Virus record (IMG/VR): IMGVR_UViG_3300022934_000114
Location: 1 to 29,217 of that record
Reading direction: 5' to 3' (one strand)
Length of the DNA: 29,217 bases
From: a virus
Below, piece after piece: positions 1,745 to 14,736 of this stretch. How positions within the stretch are numbered: position 1 is the stretch's first letter; every line of letters begins with the position of its first letter. The notes beneath the pieces were generated by a model. It was given only the letters and a program-made list of their open reading frames with translations, was not told the DNA's origin and did no database searches. Both the position numbers and the translations under genes were made by a program.

Positions 1745-1760
1745 GGCCGCTTATGCGGCC
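1745..1760 (-). other. Stem-loop between the two minus-strand genes
   Basis: GGCCGC (1745-1750) pairs with GCGGCC (1755-1760) around a 4-base loop. On the minus strand it covers the stop codon of the upstream gene and lies just before the ribosome site of the next. There is no T-run after it, so it is more likely an RNA-processing, stabilising or attenuating hairpin than a full terminator. Confidence 0.4.
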
Positions 1761-8425: not shown

Positions 8426-8701
8426 ATGGGTGAAGTAGTCGATTTTACAAGCAACGAAGAGGTCGATCAGTTCGATGCCTTCGCTACGGACTTGCTCGAT
8501 AAAGTTTTTGATAACTGCACGAACTCGCTACTCGAACCAGAAATGGTTTGCTGGTTAATGGTTACGACCTTTGCTAACTCAATGTTTCACGGTCTTTGCA
8601 AAGAACACGCCGCCGAAGAGTTTGCAAAGTGTATTACAGCAGTGATGATTAATAACGATGTCAGCTTTGAAGAAATGGTTAAAAACCTAAGCAAAGTGTA
8701 A
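8426..8701 (+). CDS. Hypothetical protein
   Basis: A 91-aa acidic, helical protein with several cysteines (NCTNSLLEPEMVCWLMVTTF, GLCKEHAAEEFAKCITAV). The middle helix is hydrophobic but interrupted by charges, so it is probably soluble. It begins one base after the previous stop and its TAA overlaps the next ATG by one base, so the three genes should be translated together. I recognise no family. Confidence 0.65.
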   Translation: MGEVVDFTSNEEVDQFDAFATDLLDKVFDNCTNSLLEPEMVCWLMVTTFANSMFHGLCKEHAAEEFAKCITAVMINNDVSFEEMVKNLSKV

Positions 8702-8925
8702 TGAGTAGTCAATTTACTGAGCAAATGACGTTGACGGAGGTAGCCGCTGAGTTAGGGCTATCCCGTCAGCGGGTAAAGCAAATAGAAAACGCGGCGCTGG
8801 AAAAGCTACGCAATAATCAAAAAGTGAGGGCAATTTATGAGGGACTTATCGACGGATGCGATGGCGCTCGGAATTATAGCAGTCATCTTGATTGTTACGG
8901 CGTTCGGAATAGCAGGGCAGGGTGA
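8701..8925 (+). CDS. Stand-alone sigma70 region-4-like protein
   Basis: A 74-aa protein. Residues 9-39 read MTLTEVAAELGLSRQRVK followed by QIENAALEKLRNN, the helix-turn-helix of sigma70 region 4.2 (consensus LxxVAxxLGxSRxRVRQIExxALxKLR). The rest of a sigma factor (regions 1-3) is absent. Such a piece could bind -35 DNA or the beta-flap of host RNA polymerase and change promoter choice. The ATG overlaps the previous stop by one base and has no ribosome site. The C-terminal 30 residues lie in the segment that overlaps the next gene and may carry little function. Confidence 0.7.
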   Translation: MSSQFTEQMTLTEVAAELGLSRQRVKQIENAALEKLRNNQKVRAIYEGLIDGCDGARNYSSHLDCYGVRNSRAG

Positions 8926-9055
8926 CTATGAAGACGCGCTTGTGGTAGAACAAGAATACTGCGAAATGGTCGATTTATGGGGGAAGACAAATGGCAGAGA
9001 CGGACATCCCGATTGGAGAAAACTTTATCAGCAGGCTTGTACGAGCGACCGATGA
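8837..9055 (+). CDS. Small single-pass membrane protein
   Basis: A 72-aa protein with one hydrophobic segment at residues 10-26 (LGIIAVILIVTAFGIAG), followed by an acidic YEDALVVEQEYCEMVDLW segment and a GHPDWRKLYQQAC end, an arrangement like small membrane proteins common in environmental phages. A GAGGG ribosome site precedes ATG 8837. It overlaps the sigma-like gene by 89 bases and the next gene by 65 bases in different frames, unusually large overlaps. Topology is probably N-in with the acidic part outside, but this is uncertain. Confidence 0.65.
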   Translation: MRDLSTDAMALGIIAVILIVTAFGIAGQGDYEDALVVEQEYCEMVDLWGKTNGRDGHPDWRKLYQQACTSDR

Positions 9056-9206
9056 AGAAGTAGAAAACTGGGTTATAGCGATTCAGGCCGCGCAAGCAAT
9101 GGCAACACGACATCAAGAGGACATGGCCGTGCTATCAGACTACAGAGTGGTAAAGCTAAAGACTAACGATGAGCCGCCACTTGAGATTATCCGCTACGAT
9201 CCGTAG
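8991..9206 (+). CDS. Hypothetical small protein
   Basis: A 71-aa protein, start ATG 8991 with a GGGGGAAG ribosome site in the overlapping gene. It contains a central helix (DEEVENWVIAIQAAQAMATRHQ) and ends with a short strand (PPLEIIRYDP). Acidic, with no membrane segment or motif. It is the last gene before the strong terminator at 9255-9277. Confidence 0.6.
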   Translation: MAETDIPIGENFISRLVRATDEEVENWVIAIQAAQAMATRHQEDMAVLSDYRVVKLKTNDEPPLEIIRYDP

Positions 9207-9213
9207 CACACCT

Positions 9214-9277
9214 TGACGGGCTTTCTTTGTTTGCTTCCTTTCCCGTCACTGATTGCCCGCTAATGCGGGCTTTTTTT
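9214..9277 (+). terminator. Double hairpin terminator of the accessory operon
   Basis: The main hairpin is GCCCGC (9255-9260), loop TAAT, GCGGGC (9265-9270), followed directly by seven T. A second inverted repeat just before it, TGACGGG (9214-9220) with CCCGTCA (9242-9248) and a 21-base loop, could add to termination or serve as a processing site. Together they separate the accessory genes from the late operon. Confidence 0.9.
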
Positions 9278-9398
9278 GCCCAAAACGAACGCAAAACGGT
9301 CCTTTTTAAGTGCGCTTTTTACCCTTAAAAAATAAGCGTTATTTATTGTCCGCACCCTTTTGGCATATATTGGTATAATATGTCGCGGGGGACACTAT
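9278..9398 (+). promoter_or_regulatory. Extended -10 promoter of the modification and packaging operon
   Basis: TGGTATAAT at 9371-9379 is a perfect extended -10 (TGn plus TATAAT). There is no good -35, as usual for extended -10 promoters. Upstream lies an inverted repeat TTTTTAAG (9303-9310) and CTTAAAAA (about 9323-9330) that could bind a regulator. A GGGGGAC ribosome site follows at 9386-9392. The position right after the terminator suggests that genes from 9399 on start from here. Confidence 0.65.
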
Positions 9399-9599
9399 AT
9401 GTTGCAAACAGTAACAATAGAATGGCATCCTGTAGAAACTGGCAGTATGCCAAGGCAAGAGGGTAGCTACTTAGTCGCATTCGATGACGGCGCGGTAGAA
9501 ACTTTCCCCATGTCACACCAAGACATTAAACGCGGAGAAGTGAAAGACGGGCAAACACATGGCCTACTATGGGCCGAAGGTATACCGTCACCTTTATGA
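9399..9599 (+). CDS. DUF551-like small protein
   Basis: A 66-aa protein, start ATG 9399 after GGGGGAC; the in-frame TTG at 9360 lies upstream of the -10 element and is rejected. The pattern IEWHPVETGSMPRQEGSYLV followed by AFDDGAVETF and a C-terminal GLLWAEGIPSPL recalls the DUF551 family (WxPV..MP..G.Y.V..DDG.V), whose function is unknown. The four-base gap before the ParB-like gene suggests joint translation. Confidence 0.6.
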   Translation: MLQTVTIEWHPVETGSMPRQEGSYLVAFDDGAVETFPMSHQDIKRGEVKDGQTHGLLWAEGIPSPL

Positions 9600-10118: not shown

Positions 10119-10324
10119 ATCACGAGACAAAAAACAAAAACATTCTCAACCGCTTTGAGTCCAGAGAAGGCGGGGTACGCAGTAAGGCATTCAGAGTTGA
10201 GCTAGTAGACGGCACGAAAATGACTGTAGTTGACCTTGATTACAAAGGCATTGAAGAAGTAGTGCGGTCTGTTAAAAACAAATTTGGCGAGCGGCTTAGA
10301 AGTGTCACAGAAGCCTACGCTTAA
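10115..10324 (+). CDS. Hypothetical small protein
   Basis: A 69-aa basic protein lodged between the ParB-like and Mom-like genes. The ATG overlaps the ParB-like stop by four bases after a GGAGGCC ribosome site. It begins with a polar, Lys/Asn-rich stretch and then a two-strand segment (AFRVELVDGTKMTVVDLDY) and a helix (IEEVVRSVKNKFGERLRSV). The 3' end overlaps the Mom-like start. No family recognised. Confidence 0.6.
   Translation: MNHETKNKNILNRFESREGGVRSKAFRVELVDGTKMTVVDLDYKGIEEVVRSVKNKFGERLRSVTEAYA
10290..10321 (+). promoter_or_regulatory. Hairpin enclosing the GTG start of the Mom-like gene
   Basis: GGCTT (10293-10297) pairs with AAGCC (10311-10315), and outer AGC (10290-10292) can pair with GCT (10319-10321) across a 3-base bulge. 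The start codon GTG 10302 lies in the 13-base loop. Such a structure could limit initiation. In phage Mu, mom translation is blocked by an RNA structure that Com opens; similarity of mechanism here is only an idea. Confidence 0.3.
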
Positions 10325-10997
10325 AATCGACTGGGCAAGTCATGAGGCGGCTAAGTTTGCGTGCGTGAACTGGCACTACAGTGCAGTGATACCTGTCGGC
10401 AAGTTAGTCAAAGTAGGTGCGTGGGAAGATGGCAAATTCATCGGCGTCGTTTTATTTGGTCGTGGCGCTAACAACAATATGCTCAAGCCATATGGGTTAA
10501 AAGCTGACCAAGGTTGTGAGTTAGTAAGAATCGCACTCAAATCTCACAAAACGCCTGTGAGTAAAATTATGGCCATAGCAATTAAGTTCCTTAAAAAAAG
10601 CAACCCTAACCTTCGTTTGATTGTAAGTTATGCTGACGCAGATCAAGATCATCATGGTGGCATCTATCAAGCTACGAATTGGGTTTATACTGGGTTAAAA
10701 AATGCAGGGTCTATGGGTGCTTTTATAATCAATGGGAAAAAAACACACCCGAAAAGTGTTCACAGCAAAGGTGTAAAGCAAAGCATTGAAAGTGTTAGAA
10801 AGCATTTAGACCCTAATGCAGAAATTTTTTACACAAAAGGAAAGCACTGCTACTTAATGCCTTTAGATGACAACACTAGAAACAAAGTGCTATTTTTATC
10901 CAAGCCATACCCTAAGCGTACAAAAGAGCAGGCGCTAGGTGACCAACCTAGTCTGGGCGGTGCAACTCCGACCTGTACGCTCCAACCTAATGGCTAA
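10302..10997 (+). CDS. Mom-family adenine modification enzyme
   Basis: A 231-aa protein. The N-terminal half carries the Mom/GNAT-like pattern: WHYSAVIPVGKLVKVG, WEDGKFIGVVLFGRGAN, then CELVRIALKSH and a LIVSYADADQDHHGGIYQ stretch. In Mu, Mom adds a methylcarbamoyl group to adenine N6 in double-stranded DNA and protects it from restriction; by family this protein should modify the phage DNA the same way. The start is probably GTG 10302 (an in-frame TTG at 10284 is less likely), overlapping the upstream gene. The C-terminal tail, GDQPSLGGATPTCTLQPNG, resembles low-complexity tails of this family. It is followed directly by terminase genes, so modification precedes packaging in the operon. Confidence 0.8.
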   Translation: MSQKPTLKIDWASHEAAKFACVNWHYSAVIPVGKLVKVGAWEDGKFIGVVLFGRGANNNMLKPYGLKADQGCELVRIALKSHKTPVSKIMAIAIKFLKKSNPNLRLIVSYADADQDHHGGIYQATNWVYTGLKNAGSMGAFIINGKKTHPKSVHSKGVKQSIESVRKHLDPNAEIFYTKGKHCYLMPLDDNTRNKVLFLSKPYPKRTKEQALGDQPSLGGATPTCTLQPNG

Positions 10998-11346
10998 AAA
11001 CAGCGGAGGTCGTCCGCGCACAGAACTTACTGATGCACAGATTGCAGAGCTAGAGACATTAGCCGCTGTATTGAATCAAGATCAAATAGCCGATTACATG
11101 GGTATACCTGCCCGCACATTGCGAGCAATTCTTTCTCGTGATGAGCTGGTTTCTGCCGCCTATAAAAAAGGCAGAGCAAAAGCTATCGGTAGAGTCAGCC
11201 AAAGCCTGTTGCGTAGTGCAACAGAAGGCAATACGACTGCACAGATTTTCTATCTAAAGACACAAGCAGGATGGAAAGAGACAGAGACAGAAGCGCAAGA
11301 CTTGCCGCCTGTAGTCATACAGCTTACGCGCGATGAAGCTGACTAA
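10990..11346 (+). CDS. terS: Terminase small subunit
   Basis: A 118-aa protein. Residues 4-50 form an HTH (GGRPRTELTDAQIAELETLA, then LNQDQIADYMGIPARTL), followed by a helical oligomerisation region with KKGRAKAIGRVSQSLL and the typical GNTTAQIFYLKTQAGWKE end. TerS recognises the packaging site on phage DNA and regulates the large subunit. ATG 10990 gives MAKNSGGRP; a GTG at 10939 in frame would add 17 residues inside the Mom-like gene and is unlikely. It overlaps the Mom-like stop by 8 bases, and terL starts 14 bases before its end. Confidence 0.85.
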   Translation: MAKNSGGRPRTELTDAQIAELETLAAVLNQDQIADYMGIPARTLRAILSRDELVSAAYKKGRAKAIGRVSQSLLRSATEGNTTAQIFYLKTQAGWKETETEAQDLPPVVIQLTRDEAD

Positions 11347-14727: not shown

Positions 14728-14736
14728 TGATACAAT
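14728..14736 (+). promoter_or_regulatory. Candidate extended -10 promoter before scaffold and capsid
   Basis: TGATACAAT has the extended TGn followed by TACAAT, 27 bases before the scaffold ATG at 14764, with no good -35. It lies in the short gap between the microprotein and the scaffold gene, where extra expression of scaffold and capsid would be useful. Confidence 0.35.

Follow-up and report, generated by a model that had tools for sequence, protein, structure and literature searches.

A stand-alone sigma region 4.2-like protein as a candidate regulator of the early/late switch in a group of uncultured phages

A gene encoding a small sigma factor-like protein was distinguished at positions 8701-8925 of a marine phage DNA stretch of 29,217 nt (positions 1-29,217 of IMG/VR record IMGVR_UViG_3300022934_000114, one strand; hereafter the window). 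Its 74-aa product has counterparts of helices H3 and H4 of sigma70 region 4, which form the helix-turn-helix of region 4.2, and an H5-like helix; H1 and H2 are absent. The reading that we favor, to which we give about an even chance, is that the protein, reduced to sigma region 4.2 and H5, binds DNA by itself as a regulator of the phage's early/late switch. The assignment of genes as early or late rests on gene order.

The similarity of the predicted protein to the sigma70 region 4.2 helix-turn-helix is far beyond chance. The Pfam family Sigma70_r4 (PF04545) was matched with 44.5 bits (E=1.1e-11, cut-off 24.1), and the runner-up, HTH_3, reached 20.4 bits, which is under its own cut-off. Sigma region 4 structures 3n97, 1rio and 1ku3 were the top matches in a phmmer search of PDB sequences (E 5e-6 to 2e-5), and the top PHROG and NCBIfam matches are also sigma factors. 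These results agree with the initial annotation, which had been based on two peptides (both present in this open reading frame) and had noted no other sigma region. The region 2 family, Sigma70_r2 (PF04542), was not matched in any of 13 records including the window; a positive control matched in 10 of 14 genomes. The broader designation “region 4-like” holds for the 4.2 helix-turn-helix and the H5-like helix, but not for region 4.1 (H1 and H2): the match covers model positions 17-50 of 50, i.e. region 4.2 without region 4.1, and is followed by the C-terminal helix. Being too short at its N-terminus to accommodate H1-H2, the protein does not represent a complete region 4. Small sigma-4 phage proteins of a similar sort are present in databases and, since phage proteins with a lone sigma-70 region 4 have been annotated there, the kind itself is known.

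Region 4 of sigma70 comprises residues 540-613 folded into helices H1-H5, with the turn between H3 and H4, according to the available part of PMC2988021. AlphaFold2 models of the phage protein were built with 8 relatives (mean predicted local distance difference test score, pLDDT, 63.8) and with 44 alignment rows (mean pLDDT 65.9). In the latter, helices are predicted at residues 11-18, 22-37 and 40-50, per-block mean pLDDT is 82-89 within residues 11-40, and residues 52-74 fall below 50. The best structural alignment of this model is with E. coli sigma70 residues 566-611 (7mkd_L; Z 3.9, root-mean-square deviation 1.9, 46 residues, 30% identity); with 8 rows the best Z was 2.7. In our reading of this alignment, R22, Q23 and K26 stand at the positions of R584, E585 and R588 of sigma70. 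Residues S21, R22, Q23, V25, Q27, I28 and E29 are invariant in all 44 rows. An E585Q change in sigma70 relaxes specificity at position -33, as stated in the available part of PMC2613000, so with Q23 at the E585 position the family would naturally have the relaxed residue.

Two viral scans yielded 65 loci: 62 of clade A (the group to which the window belongs), the distant locus L066, and L008 and L009, which encode another sigma-4.2-like protein. Ratios of non-synonymous to synonymous substitution rates (dN/dS) against the window, in a set leaving out L007, L066 and the genome_contigs loci, were 0.038-0.210 in 60 of 61 comparisons, one being saturated (38 codons, all ahead of the overlap described below). 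The protein of L007 departs from the family sequence beyond residue 35. The pooled ratio of non-synonymous to synonymous differences (pN/pS) was 0.208 over 45 unique sequences. Because it is under purifying selection, the 8701-8925 gene is judged to be real. Its ATG shares nucleotides with the stop codon of the preceding gene (TAATG), and its 3′ part shares 89 nt with a phrog_6168-like gene, which affects approximately residues 46-74 of the sigma-like protein. The exact 89-nt overlap is present in 56 of 62 rows when the longest open reading frame is taken; it differs in L011 (another match on the L011 contig gives 89 nt), L039, L042, L048, L054 and L065. Since the C-terminal tail varies and has no modelled structure, its sequence is probably set mostly by the overlapping gene. 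In L065 (2465-2689), a distant family member with R24 changed to L and without the TATAAT promoter, a different helix-turn-helix-like gene replaces the phrog_6168-like gene.

The order of genes and signals in the relatives read is: a variable gene, the sigma-like gene, the phrog_6168-like gene, one small gene, a terminator hairpin, a -10 promoter, a gene whose product begins with MLQTVT, further genes and the terminase. The MLQTVT gene was chosen as an independent bait, so the count of the sigma-like protein is not circular. Among the best 80 of 112 relatives retrieved with this bait, a sigma-4.2-like protein occupies the same slot in 69 (47 of clade A, 22 of clade B), none is without it and 11 are too short upstream. 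The slot is filled by two types of recognition helix, SRQRVKQIE in clade A and typically SRQTIRTIE in clade B. Clade B proteins are similar to those of clade A in length and overlap but different in the recognition helix, and they lie upstream of phrog_6168-like genes in 20 of 21 loci (L180-L200), the remaining one ending at the contig end. The clade A viral scans did not retrieve clade B contigs.

In a whole-record search, 11 of 11 records from this phage group gave a Sigma70_r4 match. No such match was obtained for Pelagibacter phage HTVC202P and phage DSL-LC06, which have similar terminases, so the sigma-like protein is group-specific. Among cultured phages 34 records were matched, none covering 80% of the query, and a DNA search gave no match; the bacterial genome scan returned only seven weak helix-turn-helix matches. 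A paper on the 8701-8925 protein was not found in the open PMC literature with the terms searched.

The fold suggests that the sigma-like protein binds DNA, and its family and slot suggest that it regulates transcription, presumably in the early/late switch. Built from H3-H4 and the H5-like helix, it would be made from one of the last genes of the early operon, alongside the overlapping small protein with a hydrophobic N-terminus, and would bind phage (or host) promoters as double-stranded DNA, unaided, at the early-to-late transition. It would not be one part of a split sigma factor, because no region 2 partner is encoded. If it regulates the late block, it would represent a minimal, 74-residue sigma-derived regulator in an uncultured phage group, and the two natural helix types in one slot would offer a good natural comparison for reuse of the sigma 4.2 helix as an independent DNA binder.

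Two late promoters, at 9371 and 14728, had been described in the initial annotation as extended -10 types lacking a -35, and this description was confirmed, both being conserved among relatives. Of 57 unique upstream regions, 56 retain TATAAT at the first promoter, and 15 of 15 unique relatives retain TGATAYAATTAAC at the second. Matches to TGNTATAAT with at most one mismatch are fewer in the window (13) than in shuffled sequences (mean 21.5), so the weight of these promoters rests on conservation and not on the match. The 57 unique upstream regions of the first promoter comprise 33 of type I (all with TGn), 23 of type II (one with TGn) and one without TATAAT; neither consensus contains TTGACA at -35 spacing. 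Type I has a strongly conserved TTATTTATTGTCCGCA...CATATATTGG ahead of TATAAT. The type I element (window 9325-9370), which 35 unique sequences drawn from both clades have and 22 lack, with no direct repeats shown, is the probable site of a regulator. A palindrome within it was rejected as too weak, since pairing at the best centre, 37 nt ahead of TATAAT, was 68% (11 positions), compared with 58% for the next one. Of 20 clade A sequences of type II, 19 have GCGGGC of the terminator 27 nt ahead of TATAAT and one has it 26 nt ahead; in type II loci (L001, L005, L034, L040 and others) the terminator hairpin is fused to the -10 box, with its T run at about the -35 position. In L040 and L043, tandem GACTTCGGGGGT copies between TATAAT and the MLQTVT start lengthen the leader and multiply the Shine-Dalgarno-like stretch. 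Between relatives, the upstream half of the late promoter has been swapped, with the -10 and leader remaining unchanged. Extended -10 promoters can function with region 4.2 removed, as reported in the available part of PMC2613000, and the late promoters of the window may therefore need no helper.

Several observations weigh against the proposed regulator. In clade A, 19 unique upstream regions are of type I (with TGn), 20 of the unrelated type II, without TGn, and one of neither form, so TGn is no obligate companion of the sigma-like protein, and both types adjoin downstream genes that are up to 99.5% identical, which indicates that the upstream form has been exchanged without a change of protein type. 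No DNA target of the protein was found, and two genes plus a terminator separate its gene from the late promoter, unlike the arrangement of Ltr proteins. The core of the protein is not basic (isoelectric point 6.2 for residues 1-52). Comparison of the predicted structure with sigma region 4, proposed in the initial annotation as a check, placed sigma70 566-611 at the top, but Z scores are low overall and the unrelated helix-turn-helix protein EsrB (7vim) equals sigma70 at Z 3.9, with a root-mean-square deviation of 4.7. Given the low scores and this tie, the structure serves as agreement with the sequence result and not as proof. None of the 205 viral structure matches listed reached E<=0.001.

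The link between protein and promoter implied by the initial annotation was not supported, as upstream DNA does not follow the recognition helix (the 19/20 split occurs with the same protein in clade A). Clade B has ten unique upstream regions of type I and one of type II. The left arm of type I is AATAAAT in 16 of 19 sequences from clade A (three have another form) and TTAAAT in all 12 from clade B, but the downstream genes of clade B group apart, sharing at most 91.4% identity with those of clade A, and the difference is explained by ancestry as well as by helix type. At the 9371 promoter, a specific link of the protein to the -35 position was set aside as unproven, because the types swap beside the same protein and the left arm follows ancestry.

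These data bear directly on a late activator of the Ltr/RinA type, which would bind beside the 9371 promoter and recruit host RNA polymerase to this -10-only promoter. The missing -35 and the left arms that differ between clades are in its favor; we nevertheless consider it doubtful, as the 20 unique type II promoters of clade A are entirely without the element, the arm difference is confounded by ancestry, and the conserved half TTATTTATTGTCCGCA is common to both helix types. An early-promoter repressor, switching the early operon off while the -35-less late promoters keep running, is unlikely. It would fit late promoters that use no -35, and at least one relative (L020) has TTGACA in its early upstream region; however, only five early regions, one of them with TTGACA, were readable, which is too few, no clear -35 is common to them, and the early region of the window itself has no good -35/-10 pair. 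We regard as very improbable indeed a variant in which the half-domain, having the -35-reading helix without the docking helices H1/H2, occludes -35 sites; if true, -35-dependent host and early phage promoters would be shut and the -35-less late promoters left open.

T4 late promoters are -10-only, as are those of the window. The initial annotation suggested that the protein could bind the beta-flap (or -35 DNA) and redirect host RNA polymerase. As a mimic of sigma region 4 on the beta-flap it would act in the manner of T4 gp33, which is described as such a mimic in PMC2988020. The H5-like helix would suit this role, but beta-flap contacts map in or near H1, H2 and H5 (PMC2988021, available part), so that two of the three flap-contacting helices are missing and only residues 40-50 are left in the model. 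Together with the lack of a region 2 partner, this weakens the proposed flap binding and makes such a mimic distinctly improbable. A helix-turn-helix serving replication, packaging or exclusion instead of transcription is improbable: the terminase is encoded only a few genes away and the protein weakly matches phrog_57 (terminase small subunit family, E=0.1), but its best matches are without exception sigma factors and another gene, at 10939-11346, is TerS-like (read from the gene list, no search made).

The features around the sigma-like gene are summarized in Table 1. The window also encodes a Mom-like DNA modification protein (10284-10997; Pfam E=1.3e-43), its gene having a ParB-like gene on one side and the terminase genes on the other. 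No match was obtained in an Rfam search of the window and no tRNA in a tRNA search.

Table 1. Features of the window in the region of the sigma-like gene and the late promoters.
Feature	Position	Strand	Basis or remark
Gene directly upstream, without clear family match	8426..8701	+	slot variable among relatives
Sigma region 4.2-like protein, 74 aa, ATG start	8701..8925	+	open reading frame, Pfam match, purifying selection
Pfam Sigma70_r4 match, model positions 17-50 (residues 5-38)	8713..8814	+	Pfam search
Predicted recognition helix, residues 22-37	8764..8811	+	AlphaFold2 model and alignment range
Predicted C-terminal helix, residues 40-50, at the sigma70 H5 position	8818..8850	+	AlphaFold2 model and alignment
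phrog_6168-like gene, hydrophobic N-terminus, other frame	8837..9055	+	profile match, overlap count
Last gene ahead of the terminator, conserved in relatives read	8991..9206	+	gene list, relatives
Terminator-like hairpin GCCCGC-TAAT-GCGGGC and T run	9255..9277	+	kept in relatives
Conserved type I upstream element and promoter, TTATTTATTGTCCGCA...CATATATTGGTATAATATG	9325..9382	+	upstream regions of relatives
Extended -10 site TGGTATAAT, without TTGACA-like -35	9371..9379	+	sequence inspection
First gene past the promoter, MLQTVT...	9399..9599	+	bait for co-occurrence test
Second extended -10 site TGATACAAT, ahead of the 14764 gene	14728..14736	+	kept in relatives

Mobile regulatory cassettes are found in T4-type phages, and an arrangement comparable to these was noticed here. 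A hairpin, GCCGCATAAGCGGC, located at window positions 1745-1760 (- strand) and in 42 unique contexts in the fetched loci, carries a TAA stop in its loop and forms the end of many different small genes. By pattern, 38 of the 42 contexts continue with a Shine-Dalgarno-like stretch and a start codon, and the hairpin is often placed just ahead of the sigma-like gene; it has the look of a uniform linker joining gene cassettes that can be exchanged. The other small stand-alone sigma-4.2-like protein, encoded by L008 (8001-8087) and L009 (4449-4535) on other phage contigs, has a Cys-containing N-terminal part.

The closest known counterpart of the phage protein is region 4.2 of primary and alternative sigma70-family factors, such as E. 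coli RpoD (566-613), which it resembles in helix-turn-helix sequence, in R22 at the R584 position and in the H5-like helix; it differs from these factors in standing alone at 74 aa, without regions 1-3 and 4.1, and in having Q23 at E585. Three proteins of uncultured Caudovirales with a sigma-70 region 4 domain, A0A6J5LCA9 (62 aa), A0A6J5LJJ3 (95 aa) and A0A6J5S254 (136 aa), are likewise small, with Foldseek E values of 0.67-3.4 that show no close relation to it. Ltr/RinA proteins of Gram-positive phages are basic, have approximately 130 aa and are encoded directly upstream of their own promoter, where they target repeats that precede the TATA box. In contrast, the protein described here has 74 aa and an isoelectric point of 7.8 as a whole, its core being the more acidic part given above, its gene is set apart from the promoter, and it gave no match to Ltr/RinA families in Pfam and NCBIfam. 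T4 gp33 is a small phage mimic of sigma region 4, as had been proposed for the 74-aa protein, and binds the beta-flap without discernible sequence similarity to sigma, according to the available part of PMC2988020, whereas the protein of the window, which lacks H1 and H2, has clear sigma sequence similarity.
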